The notes under the pieces: model-generated | What the model saw: the letters and a program-made list of their open reading frames with translations, nothing else | The model's database searches: none | What the model was told of the DNA's origin: nothing | Translations under genes and position numbers: made by a program | Shown here: positions 9,769 to 28,948 of the stretch, piece after piece | Layout of the letters: every line of letters begins with the position of its first letter | How positions within the stretch are numbered: position 1 is the stretch's first letter | Source: a virus | DNA: 50,531 bases | Strand: one strand, 5' to 3' | IMG/VR virus record: IMGVR_UViG_3300042559_000940 | Location: 1 to 50,531 of that record

Positions 9769-10902
9769 TCATTTGCAAACTACAACAGCTAACGGCGGAA
9801 ACCCGTTAAACGCAATAGTGCTGTAGGTGCTGGTGTAAGCCCCGCAGTTTCGTATAATAAATCGATCGCCACTGCAAAGGTCAACTGGCAAATGAACCTT
9901 GTTCTTTTCATATAGTACATCTGCACTATCGCAAGTAGGACCTGCAAGAATACATGGTCCTGTAGTAGAGTTTTCTTTACCTGGTATAGAAAATTGATAT
10001 TTAATAGCTTCGCCTTCGGTTTCAGCCAATCCACTAAATCTTCCTATGTTTAAATAAACCCAACGCACTGTTTCGTAGGATGACTTCTTGCTAACCAATA
10101 ACACTTCAGCAGCAATAGCACCAGCACTGCCTACTAATCCGCGACCCGGTTCGACCATAATGTAGTCTGCACCTGGAAATTGCTTACGAACACGATCCAT
10201 TAATTTTCTACCGTATTCTTCTGGCGGAGTTATATCAACACCGTAGTATGCAGGAAATCCGCCGCCGATGTTTACCAACGATAAATCGTATCCAAAACCG
10301 CAGGCTTCATCCCAAAGGTTAGCCATCATTTCTAGTGTGTCGAACCACATTTCAGGATGTTTTGTTTGTGAACCAATGTGCCAACTAATACCAACTGGCT
10401 TAAGACCTAGGTCTGTAGCATATCCCATTAGCTCAAGAACCATTTGGGGATCGCAACCAAACTTTCGTGATAACGGCCATTCTGCTTCAGTTTGCCCAAT
10501 CAATACACGAATAAACACGCGAGAGTTAGGTGCGTAATTTGCAATCTTTTCAAGTTCTTCACTTGCATCTGCTGCAAAAAGGTCAATACCTATAGAGTGT
10601 GCATATTTGATGTCTTGCCAACGCTTTACAGTATTGCCAAAACTGATATGTTCGGGCTTTGCACCTGCTTCTAAACAAGCATCTATTTCTCCCATCGATG
10701 CTGCATCAAACTTGCAACCTTGTTGCACTAAGCATTTTAGTATTTCAGGATGCGGATTGCTTTTAACAGCATAGTGTATGTGAGCATCGGGCATCCCACG
10801 TTTAAGATTATAGAAGTTTTTTTCCACTTCATTTATATCTAACACTAAAGTCGGTCTGTGAAATGTATTTTTTTTAATAAAATCTTCTATAAAATTGTTC
10901 AT
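9769..10902 (-). CDS. PLP-dependent ornithine/lysine/arginine-type decarboxylase, fold III (377 aa)
   Basis: Fold-III decarboxylases remove CO2 from ornithine, lysine or diaminopimelate, commonly making putrescine or cadaverine. Visible are the PLP lysine in HYAVKSNPHPEIL, the HIGSQ motif, the glycine-rich NIGGGFP and EPGRGLVGSAG phosphate-binding loops, the GPTCDSADVLYE active-site cysteine motif and the late YTSTYSTIAFNGF. At 377 residues it fits the small ornithine/lysine decarboxylase group. ATG 10902 is preferred over the longer frame because AGGAG lies just upstream. It is monocistronic or leads into the infA operon. Substrate is inferred. Confidence 0.88.
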   Translation of the reverse strand: MNNFIEDFIKKNTFHRPTLVLDINEVEKNFYNLKRGMPDAHIHYAVKSNPHPEILKCLVQQGCKFDAASMGEIDACLEAGAKPEHISFGNTVKRWQDIKYAHSIGIDLFAADASEELEKIANYAPNSRVFIRVLIGQTEAEWPLSRKFGCDPQMVLELMGYATDLGLKPVGISWHIGSQTKHPEMWFDTLEMMANLWDEACGFGYDLSLVNIGGGFPAYYGVDITPPEEYGRKLMDRVRKQFPGADYIMVEPGRGLVGSAGAIAAEVLLVSKKSSYETVRWVYLNIGRFSGLAETEGEAIKYQFSIPGKENSTTGPCILAGPTCDSADVLYEKNKVHLPVDLCSGDRFIIRNCGAYTSTYSTIAFNGFPPLAVVVCK

Positions 10903-10916
10903 GCAGTCTCCTTTGT

Positions 10917-10969
10917 AATATAGTAGTATATTTAAGCATTTTGTCAATAAAAAACAATCGCATTATGCT
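10917..10969. promoter_or_regulatory. Divergent promoters sharing one -35 region
   Basis: On the minus strand TTGACA (10947-10942) precedes TATATT (10922-10917) with a 19-bp spacer toward the decarboxylase. On the plus strand TTGTCA (10941-10946) precedes TATGCT (10964-10969) with a 17-bp spacer toward the three membrane-protein genes. The two -35 elements overlap, so the two directions may compete. Confidence 0.5.
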
Positions 10970-11639: not shown

Positions 11640-11975
11640 ATGGCAAGAACACCAAGAACACCAAAGACACTACAAGAAGACAGTCAATTTAACAAGTTTG
11701 ACACCGACGGCGATGGCGTAGTTTCCGACGAAGAACTTGCTAAAGCAGAACGCATTGTTGACTTAGAAAACAAAGATCAAAAAGAAGATCAACTTAGAAG
11801 AATGGCATGGGTTGCTATGCTTAGTATGGTTGTATTTACAGTTTTACTATTTTTACCTTTTATCGGTATTGACAGACTAGCAGCATTAGACAACATTTTA
11901 AGTATGTTCTACATTGCACAAGCTGGTGTAGTAGCATCATTCTTTGGTTCTAGTGCTTATATGAGTCGTTCATAA
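11640..11975 (+). CDS. EF-hand-containing membrane protein (111 aa)
   Basis: Residues 20-32 (DTDGDGVVSDEEL) form a canonical calcium-binding EF-hand loop. After a charged helix come two transmembrane segments (about 58-80 and 88-108). It is the last gene of the plus-strand trio, with AGGGAGATCCAGAA upstream and a terminator downstream. A calcium-responsive membrane protein is plausible. Confidence 0.7.
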   Translation: MARTPRTPKTLQEDSQFNKFDTDGDGVVSDEELAKAERIVDLENKDQKEDQLRRMAWVAMLSMVVFTVLLFLPFIGIDRLAALDNILSMFYIAQAGVVASFFGSSAYMSRS

Positions 11976-11994
11976 TAACACTTTACATTAATAA

Positions 11995-12022
11995 AAATAA
12001 GGAGCCTTTTGGCTCCTTATTT
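11995..12022. terminator. Bidirectional terminator between convergent genes
   Basis: Perfect 12-bp inverted repeat AAATAAGGAGCC-TTTT-GGCTCCTTATTT. It ends the plus-strand membrane trio and the minus-strand cyclase operon, whose stop codon lies inside the stem. Confidence 0.8.
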
Positions 12023-14056
12023 ACTTGTAGCTCTGAATACTCCGTCCCATTTTCCGGGCTGTATTTTTTTCTTAGATAGATCAGCAATACGTTCTTCCAT
12101 CATCTCGTAGTACTTGACTAGTGTGACAGGACCATTAATTTTTAACCACTGAATTTGTTCCAGAGCTGATTTCCAATTTGCTAATCTGTATTCTGATAAG
12201 AATGTTTCATGATGATGCCAAAACTCAGTGTTGGGTGTTTCTCTCCAAATTACTGTGTAAATAGGAAGTGCTTCGGTTTTACCTTTGACTGCTAATAGAT
12301 CTAATTCTACAACGTGATAGAAATGACGTGCTACTTCGGCAGTTTTTGGTCCTAGTATTAATAAAACACCATAGGGCTTGGTTTGTCCTTCAAGACGTGC
12401 GGCTGTGCTTACACTATCACCTAAAACGTCATAACCATAACGCTTATAACTGCCAATATTACCAATAACTGTAGGACCAGTATTGATACCAGCACCCATG
12501 CCAACGGGTGGCTTACCTTTTGCTTTAAGTTCTTCATTAAACACCTCTACAGCATCTATCATTTCAATTGCAGTTTTTACCGCAACACATTCATGATTAT
12601 CTTGATCAAATGGTGCACCGTTTATATGTAAACTTGCATCACCGATATATTTGATAATAGTGCCTTCGTTGCGTAATACTGGCTGTGTAATTGCTTCCAT
12701 GTAGTCATTCATGATTTGACGCAATCCTTCAACATCAGCACCGTAACTTTCTCCAAGAGGAGTAAAGCCACGCAGATCAGTCATAGTAATAGAGATGTTT
12801 TTCTTTACTCCACGTTCTATTACACTCGGATCTTTAGCCAGTAAATCAACAATCTTAGGCGACACATAACCACCAAATTGTTTTTTGATCTTTTGCTTTT
12901 GTAAGAACTCACTTACAAACTTAACAGTATATCTTACTAATCCTACCAACAACAAGAATGCTGCCGGAACAAAACCGTCTAGTAAGAAGTTATAAGCAGA
13001 GAACATATAGATGCTGCCACCGATTGATGTTCCAACTAGTATTAAAAATATTCCTATGCCCGCATAGGTCCAACGTGCTGCTATTATTAAAGCTATGCCA
13101 GAAATTACAAATCCTAGCAATTCAGCACCTGTTGCCCATGCTGGACGTTTTATATTGCTTTGATTAAACACTGTACCTAGCATTATAGCTTGTAGTTCAT
13201 GCGGCCAAATACCGCCTGCGGCTGTTGCAATTGGTTGTGTAATGCCGGCTGCTGTTGGTCCTACAAAAACTATACCGCCTGCAAAATCATCGGGCAACTC
13301 AGCAGCACTGTAACTGGAAAAATTTTGACTCCAATCTAACCAAACTCTGCCGATTTCATCTGTTTGTAATACACCATACTGTGGAATACGAAGTTTGTCT
13401 ATACCAATTGGTGACAGTTTAATTTGGAAACTTGGATCGCCGGCAAGAACACGAAGCACTTCCATAGTAACGTTAGGATACAGTATTCCACCGCTTTCTA
13501 GTATTAGTGGAGCACGTCTTGTAACACCGTCTATTTCTGGAAAAGTGTTAACAATTCCTGATCCAACAGCCGCACGTTCAATATCTGACACGTTTGCTGT
13601 GATGCCAGGCACGGAAGGAATAAGATCGATGTAGTCGCTATTAATAATACTAGCACCAGGATTGATTGGTTCATTTTTGTTTTCCTCTGTACCCAACATT
13701 GTAACTATAACAGGATAGTTGCTCATTGTGGTAGATAATACGCCATCTTGTCCTGCACGATCTGTTTCACTCATTAGAACGTTGAACACAACTAATCCTG
13801 CACCACGTGCATATAGTTCTTCGATGAGTTTGGCGTATTCGCCTCTTGGCCACGGCCATTGTCCGTTTGCCTTTAAACTTGCTTCGTCTATGTTTACTGT
13901 GTAAACGTTGTTAGCTACAGGTTCTTGATTTACTATAAGTTGGTCAAAGTAACGTAGCTGTAGACTTTCTAAAAAACTAGGATTAGCAAACTGTAGCCAA
14001 GCCAACAATACTAATACTAAAATGCTCCAAACAGGCGATAACAGTAATTTTTTCAT
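12017..14056 (-). CDS. CHASE2-domain class III adenylate/guanylate cyclase (679 aa)
   Basis: The protein has an N-terminal membrane segment (about 4-22), an extracytoplasmic CHASE2 sensor (about 25-300) and three transmembrane helices (about 305-385). The class III cyclase catalytic domain (about 400-590) and a short C-terminal helical tail follow. Metal aspartates are seen in TDLRGFT (D427) and KYIGDA (D473). K469 is at the place that often selects adenine, so cAMP is the likely product. The transition-state arginine is present in GDSVSTAARLE, but the usual Asn of GDxVN is Ser550. It ends the curli/FecR gene cluster. FecR and CHASE2 cyclases often pair in cellular bacteria. Confidence 0.88.
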   Translation of the reverse strand: MKKLLLSPVWSILVLVLLAWLQFANPSFLESLQLRYFDQLIVNQEPVANNVYTVNIDEASLKANGQWPWPRGEYAKLIEELYARGAGLVVFNVLMSETDRAGQDGVLSTTMSNYPVIVTMLGTEENKNEPINPGASIINSDYIDLIPSVPGITANVSDIERAAVGSGIVNTFPEIDGVTRRAPLILESGGILYPNVTMEVLRVLAGDPSFQIKLSPIGIDKLRIPQYGVLQTDEIGRVWLDWSQNFSSYSAAELPDDFAGGIVFVGPTAAGITQPIATAAGGIWPHELQAIMLGTVFNQSNIKRPAWATGAELLGFVISGIALIIAARWTYAGIGIFLILVGTSIGGSIYMFSAYNFLLDGFVPAAFLLLVGLVRYTVKFVSEFLQKQKIKKQFGGYVSPKIVDLLAKDPSVIERGVKKNISITMTDLRGFTPLGESYGADVEGLRQIMNDYMEAITQPVLRNEGTIIKYIGDASLHINGAPFDQDNHECVAVKTAIEMIDAVEVFNEELKAKGKPPVGMGAGINTGPTVIGNIGSYKRYGYDVLGDSVSTAARLEGQTKPYGVLLILGPKTAEVARHFYHVVELDLLAVKGKTEALPIYTVIWRETPNTEFWHHHETFLSEYRLANWKSALEQIQWLKINGPVTLVKYYEMMEERIADLSKKKIQPGKWDGVFRATSK

Positions 14057-14063
14057 ACTGTAT

Positions 14064-14303
14064 TTATTTTTTTATAGCAAGTAGTTTAGCTTTTAAATCT
14101 TCGCTGCCTACTTTAGGTTTTTCCTGGGCCACCACTGGTTGGGATTGTATTTTAGTATTTTTATAGGGTTCTTTGTCCCAGCCATTGCGGCTTCTAACAG
14201 CGGCGATGCGGGTCTGGATTTCAGCAATTCTAATATGGAGGTCCGATGATCCACTGTGTACTTCATCTTCTTTTCCTTTAAATAGATCGATCAGCCACTT
14301 CAT
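14064..14303 (-). CDS. Hypothetical basic protein (79 aa)
   Basis: This small charged protein begins MKWLIDLFKGKEDEVHS, contains IRIAEIQTRIAAVRSRNGWD and ends in a lysine-rich tail. No signal peptide. It sits 7 bases before the cyclase gene in the same direction and overlaps the preceding gene by 4 bases. Function unknown. Confidence 0.65.
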   Translation of the reverse strand: MKWLIDLFKGKEDEVHSGSSDLHIRIAEIQTRIAAVRSRNGWDKEPYKNTKIQSQPVVAQEKPKVGSEDLKAKLLAIKK

Positions 14304-14638
14304 TTTTTAATTTGAAATTCTATGCCTAATACTACACCAATGTTGTTATCTTCGAACCCTGGCGATATATAACCTATTGTATTATCATTTAATTCATAAG
14401 TGGATCTAACAAAAGGAATTACAGTGCTTTCATTGTATCCAGATACTAAACCGAATTCGTGATTCCATTTTCCGCTGCCTAGCTCAATCCCAGCATAAGC
14501 ACTTAATGCATCTTCGCTATTGTAGTAAGCACCTGCAATAAAGTCATCGTTTTGTAAACGAATATGTGGATGCAAATTATTGTAGTCCTCGTTCATTCCT
14601 AGATGAAAACTCAATGCTATTCCGTATACTAAATCCAT
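14300..14638 (-). CDS. Beta-rich, possibly barrel-like protein (112 aa)
   Basis: Alternating aromatic and polar strands (HPHIRLQNDDFIAGAYY, GYISPGFEDNNIGVVLGIEF) suggest an outer-membrane-like beta structure. No N-terminal signal peptide is visible, so export is uncertain. It lies inside the curli/cyclase cluster, with an ATAAATA site just upstream. I do not recognise the family. Confidence 0.6.
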   Translation of the reverse strand: MDLVYGIALSFHLGMNEDYNNLHPHIRLQNDDFIAGAYYNSEDALSAYAGIELGSGKWNHEFGLVSGYNESTVIPFVRSTYELNDNTIGYISPGFEDNNIGVVLGIEFQIKK

Positions 14639-14669
14639 TGTTATTGCCCCCTAACGTATTTATTTAAAA

Positions 14670-14693
14670 TGATAGGGCCCGTAGGCCCTATCA
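14670..14693 (-). terminator. Terminator with cUACGg tetraloop
   Basis: TGATAGGGCC-CGTA-GGCCCTATCA. On the minus strand the loop is TACG closed by C-G (a stable UNCG tetraloop), followed by TTTTAAAT. It separates the discoidin-curlin gene from the next gene, which has its own late-like promoter at 14657-14664. Confidence 0.75.
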
Positions 14694-14711
14694 TTAAGGT
14701 GGTATACAAAT

Positions 14712-16361
14712 TTATTGTTGATTAACTGTCATATTGCAAGTGCCGCTAGTACAAACGCCATTTACTACAGTATTGTCACTGAGGTTATTTGGAAGACTAT
14801 ACAGCTGACTTGTATCTCCACTCTGTGTAAGATTGAAGTTCCAGTTTCCGCCTGCATTTTCTAGTTCTACTATTGCTTGATGATTACCTGCACCTTCTTG
14901 CAATACTGTAACTGTAGCATCATCGCCGACGTTGGTAAGATCTAAATGATGTAGTCCAGTTCCTGTTTGAGTAATGTTGTATGTTCCGTAACTACCGTCA
15001 ATATCTAAAAATGCTGTTTTGTTGCTGTTACCACTTTGTTCAAATGTCATAGTGTTGTTGCTGCCTACAATGTTAATGTCAGCAAAGTTTCTATCAGCAT
15101 TTGATCCACTCTGTGAAATATCCAGTGTGTTTGAACTACCGTTTAAGTAAAGTAATACATAGTTACCATTGCTTAGTTGTTCAATGTCAACTGTGTTTGA
15201 ACTACCTATAATAGTAAAGTCAACATTGTTGCCACTTGTAATAGCAAATGCTGTTGCAACTTGTGCTTGTTGTACACTTGTGATACTGGTTAACGGTACT
15301 TGTACTTGTGGACCTGGGTTGCTTACACTTCCTGAACCTTGGTCAGTGCTGGTAGTGGTATCGCCGTCTTCCATCAAGAATATTACTTCTGCAATCTGAA
15401 CACTGTCGCAAGCAAGTATCTGTTGTTGTGTAGTTGGATTAGCACAACTAGGATCTGTTGTTGACTTTAATTCAGGGAATGTAATAAAGTAATAAACATA
15501 TGCTGTTGTGTTTGTAATAACTACAGGATCTATTGTTACACCACGTCCGCTAGGCAGTGTAATAGGTTGATCTTGTACAATTGCTGTCCAAGTAACACCA
15601 TCGTTTGAACCATAAAGTGTAAACTTAGTTGGATCACGCAATGCAAAATCGTTTGCTGTTGTGAATTGCAATGCTTTTACCACACGACCTGCACTTAATT
15701 TTACAGTGAAACCTGCTGTTTCTCTGTCAAAGTTAAGATACTTGGTGCTGCCGCTGCCGTCGACTGCTTTAATGGCTTCTTCACCTGCAGGTGTATTAGT
15801 ACTAGTTGGATAAACAGTTGTTATAGTACTGTTTAGGTTAGTATAAGTTGGACCTGCTGGAGCAGCACTTTGTCCTGCTGCTAGCGGCTGCGAACTTGCG
15901 AAAGTGTAACTTGTTAAATCACTTGAATCTACACTTGTATCCATATTTGTAAACGAAGCACTAGATCCATAGTTATAACCTTGTGCTGTCGAGATAACAT
16001 TACCAAAGAATCCGCTGCCGATATAAAATATGGCGCCGGAGCCTAGTGCTGTAATGTCTCCGTAGTCATGAATAATACGATCCAGTGTTCCGTTGGAATT
16101 CATTAATCTTAGACCTTGTTTTCCCGGTTGCACTGTTGAATCAAAAAATTCAAAATACTGCCCGGAGGTTGCTGTTACTGTGTTGAAGTCCTTATCGTAT
16201 GGAGCAATAAAGTTGCTTGCATTAAGCGTTGTTCCATTCCAATAATATTGAACGTCAAATATTTGTGCTATACCAAATTTACCATCTGTAATTGCAGCGT
16301 TTGCTGCTGTGGCAAATGTTAGTACAAAAAATGTTGCGATTATTTTTATTATTGTTTTCAT
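14712..16361 (-). CDS. Secreted adhesin with discoidin-like domain and curlin-type repeats (549 aa)
   Basis: A signal peptide (MKTIIKIIATFFVLTFATAANA) leads into a unique domain. A region at about 190-310 (AIKAVDGSGSTKYLNFD ... FTLYGSNDGVTWTAI) resembles F5/8 type C/discoidin carbohydrate-binding folds. The C-terminal third carries curlin-like repeats (SSNTLDISQSGSNAD, GNSNKTAFLDIDGS). It probably joins or caps a curli-like fibre and gives it a binding domain. Domain placement is by eye. Confidence 0.75.
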   Translation of the reverse strand: MKTIIKIIATFFVLTFATAANAAITDGKFGIAQIFDVQYYWNGTTLNASNFIAPYDKDFNTVTATSGQYFEFFDSTVQPGKQGLRLMNSNGTLDRIIHDYGDITALGSGAIFYIGSGFFGNVISTAQGYNYGSSASFTNMDTSVDSSDLTSYTFASSQPLAAGQSAAPAGPTYTNLNSTITTVYPTSTNTPAGEEAIKAVDGSGSTKYLNFDRETAGFTVKLSAGRVVKALQFTTANDFALRDPTKFTLYGSNDGVTWTAIVQDQPITLPSGRGVTIDPVVITNTTAYVYYFITFPELKSTTDPSCANPTTQQQILACDSVQIAEVIFLMEDGDTTTSTDQGSGSVSNPGPQVQVPLTSITSVQQAQVATAFAITSGNNVDFTIIGSSNTVDIEQLSNGNYVLLYLNGSSNTLDISQSGSNADRNFADINIVGSNNTMTFEQSGNSNKTAFLDIDGSYGTYNITQTGTGLHHLDLTNVGDDATVTVLQEGAGNHQAIVELENAGGNWNFNLTQSGDTSQLYSLPNNLSDNTVVNGVCTSGTCNMTVNQQ

Positions 16362-17452
16362 TGTTTTTGTACCACCTTAATATTGATGTTGTCGCCACCG
16401 TCTTGTATTTGAACGTTTGCAACGTAGTCGTCTTGTGTAAGACTGTAAGTTCCGTGTGTGTCTGCCCTGGTATTTAGAACAGCAATGTGAGGAGGGCGAT
16501 CACTGTCTATAAATATGCTTTCTTCGTTTGCAATCCATGTCATCCATGGATATTTGTGTATGTTTGGTAAAATTGTATTTTCTTCTTCATCTAGTTCGTT
16601 GTCGTCTAAGCCTGGTGTGAAATCTAAAAAGTTATCCAAGTATTTGTTATTAAGCCTGTTTACGTCTAATTGTGAAAAGTTAAGAAGATCGTCGTTTAAT
16701 AAATTTACGCTAAGTTCTTGATATTCTAAAAAGTCTACATCAAGGCCTGTTCTAATTTCTTCTTCTTCGTCTTCAGTAGCAAATCCGTTTGGAAATTCAC
16801 TAGGAGGAACAATGATTAATTCATTGTTAATATTTGATCTTTGTAACAATAATCTACGAGGATCGCTTGGTAACATTGCCATACTGCTTACCATAGTTCC
16901 TTGGTATGCTTCGTTAAGAGATACACTACCTGCTGCGTTACTAACTGTAATAGCACCCACTGGACATTCGTCTTCGTTGAGTGTTTCGTCAGGGCAACTT
17001 GGAAGCAGAATTATCAGACTACGACCTAACTCGTCCACAGTCATTGAAAAATCAGTACCTCTAACTGTTATGCTAGCAGTAGGCGTGTTTATACTTACAC
17101 GATCTCGGCTAGTTTTAGCTAGTTTACCGCTGGTCATTTGTACAGTGCCGAGGGCAACTTTCATACTCATACTTCCTGTGCTGGTGTTTGGGTCATATAC
17201 AAAATCGTCTATCACTAATTCACTTTGTTCAGTAATTCTTACTTTTGAATCGTCTTCAAATGTAATTTCTAAATTAGTTTGAGCAGTAATCAACTTGTCT
17301 AGCATTTCCACACCGAACCCTGCTTGTTCAAAAACAAGTTCTTCTTTGCTACGAACAGCACCTGCAGGATTGCCATCAAACTCTGTGATACTGCCCACTT
17401 CAGCAAATGCTATGCTAGGTATAATAACCATTATTCCAAACCAACGCCACAT
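16358..17452 (-). CDS. Periplasmic FecR-domain protein with a C-terminal curlin-like unit (364 aa)
   Basis: After a signal peptide (MWRWFGIMVIIPSIAFA) there is a FecR beta-domain (about 30-170), with the LEITFEDDSKVRITEQSELV and TPTASITVRGTDF motifs. A long acidic linker with asparagine/leucine repeats follows. The final 30 residues (YSLTQDDYVANVQIQDGG, NIKVVQKQ) resemble one curlin unit, so it may bind the fibre. It overlaps the adhesin gene by 4 bases. In cellular bacteria FecR domains sense or scaffold at the periplasmic side of signalling modules. Confidence 0.82.
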   Translation of the reverse strand: MWRWFGIMVIIPSIAFAEVGSITEFDGNPAGAVRSKEELVFEQAGFGVEMLDKLITAQTNLEITFEDDSKVRITEQSELVIDDFVYDPNTSTGSMSMKVALGTVQMTSGKLAKTSRDRVSINTPTASITVRGTDFSMTVDELGRSLIILLPSCPDETLNEDECPVGAITVSNAAGSVSLNEAYQGTMVSSMAMLPSDPRRLLLQRSNINNELIIVPPSEFPNGFATEDEEEEIRTGLDVDFLEYQELSVNLLNDDLLNFSQLDVNRLNNKYLDNFLDFTPGLDDNELDEEENTILPNIHKYPWMTWIANEESIFIDSDRPPHIAVLNTRADTHGTYSLTQDDYVANVQIQDGGDNINIKVVQKQ

Positions 17453-17453
17453 A

Positions 17454-18287
17454 TTAGTTCTGTAATATATTCACAGTATTTGAATTACCAGCAACTACAC
17501 CAGTGATATAAGTATATCCTATAGCAGTCTGTTGATCAAACGTAAATGCATTGGAGTTTCCGGTTATGTCCATTGTGATATTGTTATAACCTGCTGCTCC
17601 AGTTTGAGTAAATGCTAATACGTTGTTTCCACCAATGATGTCCATAATTACTACATTGTTTCCACCTGTGGTATTTTGAGTAATATCGGTAGTGTTTGAA
17701 TCTCCATCAATGTTAGCAGTTACAGAGTCATAGCCTGCTGTTGAAATTTGTGTAAGATTGAACACGTTTTGATCGCTAGGAGTAGTTTGTCCTATTTTTA
17801 TATTATTAGTGCTATCTGCACTGTCTAATGCAAAGTTCAACTGGTTATTACTACCTATTAGTTCTACTGTAGTTGTGGTATTGTTAACAATTACACCATT
17901 ACAATTACTGTTTGTATAATCTCTACAGTATGTAATAGCGTTCGAACTACCAGTAATAGTAGTATCAAATGTATTTGAAATTCCGCCAAATATTTGTCCA
18001 ATTATAGTGTTATAATCTCCAGCGGCACTGTAGACCAGTGTAGTATTATTTGCCCCTGATTCTAATTCAAAATCTGCTTCGTTGCCGTCGCCGTTTTGAG
18101 TTATGTTAATATCAATGTCATTTCCTTCAATATCAAAAGGGTTGTCTTCTCTATTAACACGGTTAAGTCCATTTTCTTGTAGCACATCTACATTCAATGC
18201 ACCACCTGCTTGATCAATATATACTTCACTTGCTATCGCTGTTGTTGCCAACATAGAGAAAGCCACTGTGGTTAGAATCTTTTTCAT
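17454..18287 (-). CDS. Curlin-repeat (CsgA-like) amyloid fibre subunit (277 aa)
   Basis: A signal peptide (MKKILTTVAFSMLATTAIA) is followed by repeats of the pattern G-N-x-N-x-hydrophobic-x-Q (GDSNTTDITQNT, GGNNVLAFTQTGA, GNSNAFTFDQQ, GNSNTVNILQN), the beta-hairpin repeat of curli subunits. E. coli CsgA is 151 aa with five repeats; this one is longer. It lies downstream of csgG and next to the FecR gene. Exact subunit versus nucleator role is not decided. Confidence 0.85.
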   Translation of the reverse strand: MKKILTTVAFSMLATTAIASEVYIDQAGGALNVDVLQENGLNRVNREDNPFDIEGNDIDINITQNGDGNEADFELESGANNTTLVYSAAGDYNTIIGQIFGGISNTFDTTITGSSNAITYCRDYTNSNCNGVIVNNTTTTVELIGSNNQLNFALDSADSTNNIKIGQTTPSDQNVFNLTQISTAGYDSVTANIDGDSNTTDITQNTTGGNNVVIMDIIGGNNVLAFTQTGAAGYNNITMDITGNSNAFTFDQQTAIGYTYITGVVAGNSNTVNILQN

Positions 18288-18326
18288 TTTTTTGCCCTCG
18301 TATTGGTAAGTTTTATCTTACTCTGT

Positions 18327-19100
18327 TTATTGTTGGATGGTCCAGATACCGTTATCCGCACCTTCCTTTATCATTTCTACTATTGCTGCTTGAATTGCCA
18401 ATCTTACAGCATGATTTACGCTTTCGTTTTGACTGTTGCCCACTTCTAATTCAACTGCTTGTGTGCCTAACTCAATAAAGCGAAATACCCCCATATCTGT
18501 GCTAGTGCTTACAACTGTTTTTGTTACCGCCGTGCTGGTTAATATTTCACCGGTCTGCACACTTACACAACGCATTGTTACAGTTATAACATCTTCTGTG
18601 TATTGAGTGCTCGGTCCTATACCTAAATAGCGTGCCCCCGCTCCGCCTGTTAGAGTATTTGAATCATAACCAACTATAGCACCTTCTACAATTAGTCCTG
18701 CAAACATCATTGGTGCTAGAGGAGTTTCGTCTCCTACACTTTCTCTGGTCTGTCTAATAATCTGACGCTCTTTAGACAAGTTTTCTAATCCCACACGTTC
18801 AACAACTTTAAACCATGTACCGTTGCCTACTTCGCGTAGTGCTTTAATTACGTATTCACTTGCACCTTGTGTAACGGCTGTGCTGATATTTGCAAGGCGT
18901 TCACTAGGTTTACGCTGCCCTGTTTTATCTTCAAATTGATACACTGCTGCTACCATAGGTCCTGCTAGAGGAGGAAGTGCATTTAGGTATTCTTCGTCTG
19001 TGATCACAACCTGCGGCGGTTCACTTTCAATTCTATTCACTGTAGATGAACAACTTGCTAATATAGATGTGGCCAGCAATATAGATAATAGTATTTTCAT
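18327..19100 (-). CDS. csgG: Curli secretion channel CsgG (257 aa)
   Basis: CsgG forms the nonameric outer-membrane pore that exports curli subunits. The protein has a lipoprotein signal with LASC lipobox (Cys17). PMVAAVYQFEDKTGQRKPSE, SEYVIKALREVGNGTWFKVVER and GARYLGIGPSTQYTEDVITV are characteristic of CsgG. The length matches E. coli CsgG (277 aa). Its first base overlaps the csgF stop. Curli secretion genes are known to me from pelagimyophages. Confidence 0.93.
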   Translation of the reverse strand: MKILLSILLATSILASCSSTVNRIESEPPQVVITDEEYLNALPPLAGPMVAAVYQFEDKTGQRKPSERLANISTAVTQGASEYVIKALREVGNGTWFKVVERVGLENLSKERQIIRQTRESVGDETPLAPMMFAGLIVEGAIVGYDSNTLTGGAGARYLGIGPSTQYTEDVITVTMRCVSVQTGEILTSTAVTKTVVSTSTDMGVFRFIELGTQAVELEVGNSQNESVNHAVRLAIQAAIVEMIKEGADNGIWTIQQ

Positions 19101-19555
19101 TAGAACGCAAACTCCCCTACTGGTACATCAAAGCTAGATACTAACTCTCCATTTGAGTCGTATACCTCTATATAAATTCTGTCATCAACATCTCTCATCC
19201 AACGAATATTATCGCCGAATGGAGTTTCTGCTTCTGCCCATTCTCCTATTGTAATGGTGCCGCCTTCGCCAAATAGTGCATCTGCTATTTGTTTTGACAG
19301 TTGTGCGTAGATACGACTTTCTAAGTTGTTTTGAAATTTATAAGCGTTACTGTTACGATATTCACGCTCAATGCGATCAAGTTCTGCTTGCTCGTCTGCT
19401 TTAATTTTATCTCTGCGTTGTTGCTCTAACTGTTCAATAGTAAGAACGTGTGTACTATATCCATTGCCGCTAAAAGCAGGGGAATTAAATTCAAACACGA
19501 TATCCGCTAGGGCCGGATTCGCAATCAAACATGCGATTATTATTATTTTTTTCAT
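19100..19555 (-). CDS. csgF: Curli assembly factor CsgF (151 aa)
   Basis: CsgF binds CsgG at the outer membrane and couples export to nucleation. A signal peptide (MKKIIIIACLIANPALA) precedes a mature start DIVFEFNSPAFSGNGYSTH, which matches the conserved N-terminal CsgG-binding segment of CsgF. ATG 19555 follows GGAGGGCATTCC and is better placed than the earlier in-frame codon at 19570. It is the first gene of the cluster. No CsgE, CsgC or CsgD is visible nearby. Confidence 0.9.
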   Translation of the reverse strand: MKKIIIIACLIANPALADIVFEFNSPAFSGNGYSTHVLTIEQLEQQRRDKIKADEQAELDRIEREYRNSNAYKFQNNLESRIYAQLSKQIADALFGEGGTITIGEWAEAETPFGDNIRWMRDVDDRIYIEVYDSNGELVSSFDVPVGEFAF

Positions 19556-19610
19556 TGGAATGCCCTCCATTATTATTTAACTAACGGAGTCATTTCTATG
19601 TATGCTAATA

Positions 19611-20291
19611 TTATTTTATATCAGGAAACAAGCATTCCTGTACAAAAACTTGTACATCTTCTTCGTTTAGTCCAAGAGCTGTCATTGTTCTTGGTGTATG
19701 CGGATTTTGTTTTTGATAATATGCATAACGATTTTGTGCTGCCGCGCCTTCTTCGTAAGTGCATTTTGTGTATCTGTAATATCCAAGCCAGTCATCAAGA
19801 TTGTTAAGACTTAAGTCTATTAACGATTCTAATTCTTCGTTGGTATTTACATTACCAACAGCAACCATATACTGACTAAAAATAGCTTTAGCCCAGTCAG
19901 GAAGCTCTCTTTCTTTTTTCCAGTCATACTCAGATACAACTTTTCCAAAGTTTATAATCATTGTATGATTAGGTGCTACAGTTGGACTAAAATCGTGAAA
20001 AAATCCTGTAACTTTATTTTTACCTGCTATTATGTCTAGCCCGTAAATTGGTGCAGTATCTGTGCAATGTGGAAATAAACAAACATGCATCATCCACAGT
20101 CCTTTAGTTGATCTTGCATCAACCACATCAACATGGGCACGACGAATTGTGTCGTTTTGCCAAACTCTATTCACCCAGCCCGGCTGATTAAATCTATCCA
20201 TGCCAGGCTCGTATACTTCTGTGGCACACGAGTTGAGTTTAGATATAATTTTATCTTGAAGATTGACTAACTGATTCCAAACTTCACTCAT
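19611..20291 (-). CDS. Ferredoxin-dependent bilin reductase (PcyX/PebS-like, 226 aa)
   Basis: These enzymes reduce biliverdin to phycobilins with ferredoxin electrons. Matching features are the WMMHVCLFPH strand, PIYGLDIIAG with the catalytic-type Asp (D86), the HDFSP segment and the C-terminal QNPHTPRTMTALGL ... QECLFPDI. It overlaps the heme oxygenase gene, which supplies biliverdin. Length fits the viral PebS/PcyX group known from oceanic phage sequences. Which product it makes cannot be read from the sequence. Confidence 0.83.
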   Translation of the reverse strand: MSEVWNQLVNLQDKIISKLNSCATEVYEPGMDRFNQPGWVNRVWQNDTIRRAHVDVVDARSTKGLWMMHVCLFPHCTDTAPIYGLDIIAGKNKVTGFFHDFSPTVAPNHTMIINFGKVVSEYDWKKERELPDWAKAIFSQYMVAVGNVNTNEELESLIDLSLNNLDDWLGYYRYTKCTYEEGAAAQNRYAYYQKQNPHTPRTMTALGLNEEDVQVFVQECLFPDIK

Positions 20292-20811
20292 TGGTTAATT
20301 CCGTAAACAATTGAATAGCAAACTCAAAACAACGATTTGCTTCTTCTGCCATGTCATCTGACAGCATTGATCTAACCTTAGTTTTAAGTTCTTCAACGTT
20401 ATCAAAATCATACATAGTTCCTGATCCTGGATTACGTTTCTTAATCATCTGGCCGCCATACATATCGCCAAAATGACGAACGTAAATGTGAGCAAGTATA
20501 CCTTCTCGATTTAGATTTATAATATGCTTTTCATATTCACGCACAACTGGCATTAAGAGACTGGGTGTGGTGCCTATAGCGTATTCTCGTTCGAGTTCTC
20601 TGATATCTGCATAAATGCGTTCTGCTCTATAGATTTCTTTTAGTTCAGGTAATACATGCTTGGCAGCATCTTCAAGTATAGAATATATCATATACTGATT
20701 ATACAGATAACGATGGTATTCTTCTGGAGAAAGCCCTTTAAGAAGATTTCGTGCAAATTCGGTACGTTCAGCACGTTGATGAACTTCGTATGTTAGTTCT
20801 TTTAACTTCAA
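20284..20811 (-). CDS. Heme oxygenase (175 aa)
   Basis: Heme oxygenase opens heme to biliverdin, CO and iron. The likely proximal heme ligand is His11 in YEVHQRAERTEFARNLL. The distal helix shows HIYVRHFGDMYGGQMIKK, with the conserved GD and GG glycines. The gene overlaps ClpS upstream (ATGA, 4 bases) and the bilin reductase downstream (8 bases). The pair forms a biliverdin-to-phycobilin cassette or, alternatively, an iron-release function. Confidence 0.88.
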   Translation of the reverse strand: MKLKELTYEVHQRAERTEFARNLLKGLSPEEYHRYLYNQYMIYSILEDAAKHVLPELKEIYRAERIYADIRELEREYAIGTTPSLLMPVVREYEKHIINLNREGILAHIYVRHFGDMYGGQMIKKRNPGSGTMYDFDNVEELKTKVRSMLSDDMAEEANRCFEFAIQLFTELTNE

Positions 20812-28560: not shown

Positions 28561-28584
28561 AAAGGGTGCCCGTAGACACCCTTT
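28561..28584 (-). terminator. Rho-independent terminator of the tmRNA
   Basis: AAAGGGTG (28561-28568) pairs with CACCCTTT (28577-28584). On the minus strand the stem is followed by TTTTTTAA. It lies just after the tmRNA coding piece. Confidence 0.8.
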
Positions 28585-28855
28585 CCAGTCTTTCTGTTGC
28601 TAGGCGACTAACCCCCGTAACCCTTAGGCTACCATGAGCTCCTGAGGAGCATAGTTGCTGTTTGCGACTATAATTTTATTGCGTTAACCGAGCTTTCGCC
28701 GGGTGACTCCATCCTGCCTAGTTCGTACATCGATCCTATTTCGACCCCAGCAAATACACACTAGCTTGCAAGACTCCTAATAACTCCACGGGTACGCCGC
28801 TGTTATTAGGTAGTGTGTACTTGGTGGAGTCGCCGGGTACCGCCCCCGGGTCTGT
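28585..28855 (-). ncRNA. ssrA: Circularly permuted (two-piece) tmRNA
   Basis: tmRNA frees stalled ribosomes and tags their products for proteolysis. Minus-strand order is acceptor piece first, with T-stem CCGGG/CCCGG (28833-28849), acceptor strand CGACTCC (28832-28826) and A+CCA (28825-28822). A 73-nt spacer follows. The coding piece opens with GGGGTCGAAA at 28748, whose GGGGTCG pairs 7 of 7 with CGACTCC (one G-U). ATAGTCGCAAAC then precedes the tag frame GCA..TAA (28665-28624), encoding ANSNYAPEELMVA. The same TAGTCGCAAAC context precedes the E. coli tag. A late promoter lies at 28887-28894 and a terminator at 28561-28584. Ends of the mature pieces are estimates. Confidence 0.88.
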
Positions 28856-28886
28856 CCCGTGTTCAGTGAACTTCAACATCACAAGT

Positions 28887-28894
28887 TATTTATA
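28887..28894 (-). promoter_or_regulatory. T4-type late promoter motif upstream of tmRNA
   Basis: The minus strand reads TATAAATA exactly, 30-40 bases upstream of the tmRNA acceptor piece, giving a predicted start near 28878. Confidence 0.55.
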
Positions 28895-28918
28895 TGCTAT
28901 TTCTTAGTATCAGTCAAG

Positions 28919-28948
28919 AAAATAGAGTGACTTTCGCCACTCTATTTT
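28919..28948 (-). terminator. Terminator after pstS
   Basis: AAAATAGAGTG (28919-28929) pairs with CACTCTATTTT (28938-28948). On the minus strand the stem runs into TTTTCTTGAC. It separates pstS from the tmRNA. Confidence 0.75.

Follow-up and report, generated by a model that had tools for sequence, protein, structure and literature searches.

Why would a phage keep the genes of a curli-type fibre together with a receptor cyclase? Since 2020 the curli genes of phages have been described as unexplained, and the question is raised by the IMG/VR virus record IMGVR_UViG_3300042559_000940, whose positions 1 to 50,531 form the window analyzed here (50,531 nucleotides, or nt, in full). On the minus strand of the window, from 19555 to 12017, Pfam identifies csgF, csgG, a first curlin, a FecR-domain gene, a second curlin, two small genes and a CHASE2 cyclase. 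This confirms the cluster of csgF, csgG, curlin, FecR, discoidin-curlin and cyclase genes that an earlier, sequence-only reading had placed there on one strand. Our analysis shows that the fibre genes and the receptor cyclase occur one-to-one in phage contigs of up to 372 kb. A coupling of fibre and cyclase is likely, with the output of cyclic adenosine monophosphate (cAMP) left unexplained. As a mechanism we tentatively propose, at somewhat less than an even chance, a late adhesive curli-type fibre with a FecR link that is read by the CHASE2 cyclase. The one-to-one co-occurrence and the presence of the module in giant phages are new here, as are the Ser at the transition-state position of many cyclases, the exchange of their catalytic halves, the curlin-type end of FecR, the signals that set the cyclase apart as a unit and the scarcity of proteins that bind cyclic nucleotides; together with the probable fibre role of FecR and the scarcity of cAMP receptors, this retention turns a vague idea into a testable one.

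The virus itself is not the pelagimyophage that had been assumed. The whole window lies inside a 330,024-nt viral contig, with 99.995–100% identity in the pieces compared by BLASTN, and a typical pelagimyophage (HTVC008M-like, T4-like, 140–150 kb, with a SAR11 host) was therefore rejected. Besides a NAMPT gene the contig has two of T4 type, RIIA and RNA ligase / tail-fibre attachment catalyst, and the genome, no shorter than 330 kb, is that of a T4-like jumbo phage.

The curli module

The eight genes of the module are as follows.

19100..19555, minus strand: csgF, 151 amino acids (Pfam CsgF 5.5e-12; phrog_35372), with a signal peptide seen by eye
18327..19100, minus strand: csgG, outer-membrane pore lipoprotein (Pfam CsgG 1.1e-51), with a lipobox LASC seen by eye
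17454..18287, minus strand: curlin 1, CsgA/B-like fibre subunit (Pfam Curlin_rpt 8.2e-5)
16358..17452, minus strand: exported FecR-domain protein (Pfam FecR 3.9e-10; AlphaFold model with a mean predicted local distance difference test score, pLDDT, of 84.6)
14712..16361, minus strand: curlin 2, with a discoidin (F5/8 C) domain and curlin repeats (Pfam Curlin_rpt 5.5e-8)
14300..14638, minus strand: PagP-like C-terminal small protein, 112 amino acids (phrog_3600 3.2e-9)
14064..14303, minus strand: 79-amino-acid protein with no assigned function, overlapping the PagP-like gene by 4 nt
12017..14056, minus strand: CHASE2 receptor with a class III nucleotide cyclase domain, 679 amino acids (Pfam CHASE2 1.1e-37, Guanylate_cyc 2.5e-16; phrog_35576 5.5e-192)

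The tight junctions reported earlier hold from csgF to curlin 2, where the intergenic gaps are -1, 39, 1 and -4 nt. After curlin 2, a 73-nt gap containing a hairpin is followed by two small genes before the cyclase that had gone unmentioned (gaps of -4 and 7 nt). The start of csgF at 19555 had been chosen correctly, since an ATG further upstream, at 19570, overlaps with the ribosome-binding site (GGAGG) just ahead of the ATG at 19555.

Linkage of the fibre genes and the cyclase across phages

Three seeded scans of viral contigs, added to the loci already collected, gave a total of 241 phage loci; the top 80 matches served as seeds, and contigs that are nearly identical were not fully collapsed. 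The same gene order is found in most of these loci, far beyond chance, and most have two curlin-type genes; the PagP-like gene is present in 39 loci and the 79-amino-acid gene in 18. Where the contig leaves enough room around a CsgG seed, the cyclase is on the same strand and no more than 8 kb off in all 68 loci; the corresponding counts are 80 of 80 for FecR and 79 of 79 for CsgF. With the cyclase as seed, CsgG is found upstream, at most 8 kb away, in 53 of 60 loci; the seven misses first suggested a loss of linkage, but the six that were examined singly (all except L123) proved to have CsgF on the same contig.

The linkage is not absolute, as the cyclase is inverted or located 9–19 kb from the curli genes in several phages. 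Even with the linkage broken, exactly one CsgF and one CHASE2 gene are present in all 36 large phage records, which were picked for carrying one of the module genes. Because the pair survives the loss of operon linkage, this argues for a functional tie that goes beyond co-transcription. The sequence-only reading would have given up the coupling had the genes been unlinked in related phages and expressed at different times; the cyclase does often stand in a late unit of its own, and is sometimes inverted or distant, but no tested record has lost it. A functional bond of the cyclase to the curli genes is thus supported by the 68 loci and 36 records, and also by the invariant residues and the selection on the enzyme described below.

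Transcription signals

Three signals divide and close the module.

14668..14695, minus strand: terminator-like hairpin with a 12-bp stem (-23.8 kcal/mol, z = -4.94) and a short U tract
14657..14664, minus strand: T4-type late-promoter-like motif AATAAATA, directly after the hairpin and 18 nt before the ATG at 14638
11995..12022, minus strand: strong terminator hairpin between the cyclase and a convergent EF-hand gene, which closes the unit

The terminator suspected at 14670 is real in the sense of the first of these hairpins, short U tract included. Coming one after the other, the hairpin and the promoter-like motif would put the cyclase in a unit of its own, and the simplest reading is that of two late units, one for the fibre genes and one for the cyclase. 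The relatives point in the same direction. An ATAAATA motif is present within 60 nt upstream of the cyclase in 43 of 156 loci, against 5.5 in simulations (maximum 10), and within 60 nt upstream of csgF in 29 of 150 loci, against 6.7 (maximum 14). No copy was found when 120 nt ahead of csgG and FecR were examined, a weak control given that these stretches are mostly coding, and the exact motif was not found before csgF in the window itself. We relied only on the position of the motif before csgF and the cyclase across relatives, since its raw count in the window (17) is near the first-order expectation (11.9) and a genome-wide enrichment was rejected on that count. A copy at 14068, immediately ahead of the cyclase start, was discounted, as its transcript would start within the start codon itself.

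These signals bear on the possibility that the fibre and the cyclase are functionally separate, the cyclase being an independent gene for host takeover that delivers a cAMP pulse or drains adenosine triphosphate. A cyclase with its own late unit is what one would expect in that case, as are the gap of over 1 kb that separates it from the curlin or FecR gene before it in 44 of 136 loci and the inverted or remote cyclases mentioned above. The presence of both genes in 36 of 36 records speaks against such a separation, even allowing for records chosen by one of the two, and so does the recurrence of FecR–CHASE2 pairs in bacteria without curli. We consider the separation somewhat unlikely.

Pore and fibre

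For the pore gene csgG, the ratio of nonsynonymous to synonymous substitution rates (dN/dS) is 0.056 against L164. The function of the fibre is predicted from the curlin repeats found by Pfam, and curlin 2 is a predicted adhesive fibre subunit. Its F5/8 type C match (5.7e-6, 26.9 bits) is just under the cut-off of 28.2, and the same domain passes the cut-off in the homologues of four relatives (L088, L226, L070 and L158). The curlin 2 of the relatives has F5/8 type C in several phages, PA14 in HTVC008M and L017, or neither domain.

It has been proposed that CsgG and CsgF act as a gated pore for the timing of lysis or the uptake of larger solutes, with fibres being secondary (PMC9004378, PMC7029224). 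No CsgE, the gate, was matched by Pfam among the eight module genes, the only part of the 330-kb genome that was scanned for it, and cultures infected with the phage Melnitz showed no clumping (PMC9004378); both would suit a pore. The two curlin-type genes of most loci, one of them lectin-type, and a FecR protein with a curlin-type end suit the secretion of a fibre, and a fibre with an exchangeable sugar-binding part fits adhesion better than a bare pore. A pore as the principal function is in our judgment decidedly unlikely.

The FecR protein

The FecR protein has a signal peptide (by eye) and PF04773 as its sole Pfam domain. Its AlphaFold model comprises the FecR domain at about residues 20–200, a low-confidence linker at about 210–290 and an ordered C-terminal beta domain at about 295–364. 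The protein ends in INIKVVQKQ, a strand of the curlin type. Defined as [VIL]x[VILAFY]xQ within three residues of the protein end, this terminal motif is present in 143 of 160 complete phage FecR proteins and in 173 of 281 curlins, versus 10 of 1154 control proteins. We speak of a curlin-type strand, and not of a curlin repeat, because the likeness stops at about 10 C-terminal residues: the idea that the tail is a curlin repeat was rejected once profile searches left only this short motif.

One study suggested that FecR is an iron-responsive regulator of the module (PMC9599517). The Pfam domain agrees with this suggestion, as does a Foldseek match of the model to the cell-surface-signalling domain of the anti-sigma protein PupR (E 1.5e-4). 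However, Pfam found no anti-sigma domain in the protein and neither an extracytoplasmic function (ECF) sigma factor nor a TonB receptor gene among the scanned neighbours of the module, and an anti-sigma regulator was rejected on these grounds. A role in iron or anti-sigma regulation would be unlikely for an exported protein that ends in a curlin-type strand, and as an account of the module it seems to us very improbable. FecR probably belongs to the fibre instead.

The large RTX adhesins are kept at the cell surface by an anchoring domain that is folded inside and too large for the channel (PMC12077191). Like the retention domains of the LapA / MpAFP type, FecR would combine a small folded periplasmic domain, a linker and an exported part, and by analogy it could hold the fibre at CsgG or nucleate it there. 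Foldseek relates the model, weakly, to 5ix9, the anchoring domain of a Marinomonas adhesin (E 0.017; template-modelling score 0.71 by target). The RTX adhesins differ in using a TolC-type channel and a large adhesin, while here there is CsgG and no large adhesin. In 4 of 29 alphaproteobacterial loci (1.5-kb flanks) an ordinary CHASE2 cyclase has a FecR-domain gene as its neighbour, and a Burkholderia operon of FecR and a CHASE2 kinase, BiofilmReg, controls biofilm formation (PMC5192318). In these pairs an exported FecR protein adjoins a CHASE2 receptor, as it does here, but no curli genes are joined to them, and the Burkholderia receptor is a kinase. On the strength of this adjacency, FecR is a reasonable candidate partner of the CHASE2 domain.

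The receptor cyclase

The metal-binding Asp pair, the adenine Lys and the Arg expected of a class III adenylate cyclase are invariant in 160 distinct phage cyclases (D427, D473, K469 and R554 in the window, where D543 and S550 were noted as well). The specificity position is D in 101 of these proteins, T in 43 and S in 16. With a dN/dS of about 0.1 against close relatives, the window protein is a Ser-type cyclase under selection and a predicted enzyme. The phage cyclases, joined by one cyclase from a metagenome-assembled genome (MAG) of Hyphomonas (TMED17), group apart from 29 alphaproteobacterial CHASE2 cyclases with a support of 100, these 29 being a sample and not the full set.

The two halves of the cyclase differ in history. 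The receptor and catalytic halves are 91.5% and 55% alike between L177 and L179, 79% and 42% between L016 and L175, 82% and 60% between L028 and L031, and 68.5% and 37.6% between L021 and L170, and each pair has one member of the Ser type and one of the Asn type. This points to a catalytic half that has been repeatedly exchanged under conserved receptors.

In two loci (L125, 12927–14156; L142, 12183–13415) a second open reading frame lies just downstream of the CHASE2 cyclase, and its start resembles, by sequence only, a soluble class III cyclase.

Proposed mechanism

In the mechanism that we tentatively favour, CsgG and CsgF would form the outer-membrane pore and curlin 1 the fibre subunit, with curlin 2 as a subunit bearing a swappable carbohydrate-binding domain. 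The FecR domain would fold and stay in the periplasm, and its C-terminal domain, ending in the curlin-type strand, would probably link the fibre to the pore or nucleate it there. The cyclase, seated in the inner membrane, may then read FecR, its likely partner, through the periplasmic CHASE2 domain, so that assembly of the fibre or its contacts would change the synthesis of cyclic nucleotides inside the cell. The most likely biological use would be the adhesion or aggregation of infected cells. Secretion through CsgG, the contacts of FecR with the fibre and with CHASE2, and the signal itself are the steps that we infer.

Several observations weigh against this mechanism. The tail of FecR has no significant match to curlin profiles, and by sequence the protein resembles 5ix9 only weakly (E 0.28). 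The transition-state Asn is kept in 60 of the 160 phage cyclases and is Ser in the other 100, including Ser550 of the window; Asn stands at this position in the three solved cyclases that match best, those for which alignments were available. The Melnitz cultures did not clump, and bacterial curli loci, with one exception described below, are without FecR and cyclase (80 loci). A further point is the receiver of the signal. No protein with the cyclic-nucleotide-binding domain PF00027 was found in 16 phage records, and it occurs in 2 of 60 genomes from the family of a Pelagibacter MAG, as compared with 43 of 58 Alphaproteobacteria sampled at large; the genomes may be incomplete, other receptor folds lie outside PF00027, and the Pelagibacter family may not be that of the window's host. 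The obvious cAMP target thus appears to be mostly missing where the host family is known. Co-occurrence and conservation strengthen the coupling of fibre assembly to second-messenger signalling, as first suggested for this DNA, and the shortage of receivers weakens it.

The same shortage, along with the divergence of the catalytic halves under conserved receptors (as in L177/L179 and L016/L175), would agree with a cyclase whose product or domain interferes with host defence or metabolism, the exchange of halves being an arms race. No defence partner turned up, though no search was aimed at one, and PF00027, on which the shortage of receptors is judged, does not extend to other cAMP-binding folds. 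We regard this interference as improbable. A broader version of our proposal, in which the phage installs an outside-to-inside sensor (a FecR-tethered curli fibre with a CHASE2 readout) in hosts devoid of canonical cyclic-nucleotide receptors, and catalytic halves are exchanged as the product or target differs, would also accommodate these facts; it strikes us as unlikely.

Known modules and bacterial relatives

The combination of curli, FecR and cyclase is already known in pelagiphages, and the window is its jumbo-phage instance. Curli genes in phage were reported with a suggestion of sibling capture (PMC7029224), and in 2022 FecR and an adenylate cyclase were identified in the curli modules of myophages and podophages, with trees that place the phage proteins nearest Alphaproteobacteria (PMC9599517). 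The sensor cyclase is thus not the new addition it had been taken for, and the idea of coupling is close to that of the authors of the 2022 study. The comparison of gene order proposed earlier gives an identical order, csgF-csgG-curlin-FecR-curlin-cyclase, in HTVC008M and Melnitz, and the window agrees with the published phage curli (type VIII secretion) module in its six genes, their order and their single strand. The literature searched yielded no publication on curli in jumbo phages.

The pelagiphage modules (HTVC008M, Melnitz and HTVC023P-type podophages; PMC7029224, PMC9004378, PMC9599517) likewise have no csgE. The window differs from them in its jumbo genome, the inserted PagP-like and 79-amino-acid genes, a curlin 2 with a discoidin domain and a cyclase whose catalytic half is of the Ser type, and it has no counterpart of the histidine kinase in front of the HTVC023P-type modules. 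With bacterial csg operons it shares the CsgG/CsgF pore and the curlin repeats.

Phage CsgG found 80 loci in bacterial genomes, a set in which some MAG contigs look like phage. A single cellular locus among them joins FecR and a CHASE2 cyclase to curli genes: L252 (9348–15371), in the marine Hyphomonas MAG TMED17, has the whole csgF-csgG-curlin-FecR-cyclase order between ordinary chromosomal flanks. The module is thus not confined to viruses; the locus may represent a donor type or a back-transfer. Phage-type curli loci are also seen in MAG contigs labelled Rhodobacteraceae, Pirellulales, Pelagibacter, Flavobacteriales and Sphingobacteriales (L247–L250 and L259). They were not counted as bacterial, since they resemble phage contigs binned into MAGs, and L259 carries T4-type replication genes.

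Neighbouring genes in the window

A permuted tmRNA (transfer-messenger RNA) gene of the alphaproteobacterial type is located at 28582–28921 on the minus strand, as one is in Melnitz, and its type points to an alphaproteobacterial host without proving one. Directly upstream of csgF and on the same strand are genes for heme oxygenase and a ferredoxin-dependent bilin reductase (19611–20811), preceded by ClpS-like and Hsp20 genes. On the other side of the module, a small EF-hand protein that probably has a membrane segment is encoded at 11640–11975, convergent with the cyclase and sharing its terminator, and a gene for a pyridoxal phosphate-dependent decarboxylase of the ornithine/arginine type is found at 9769–10947.

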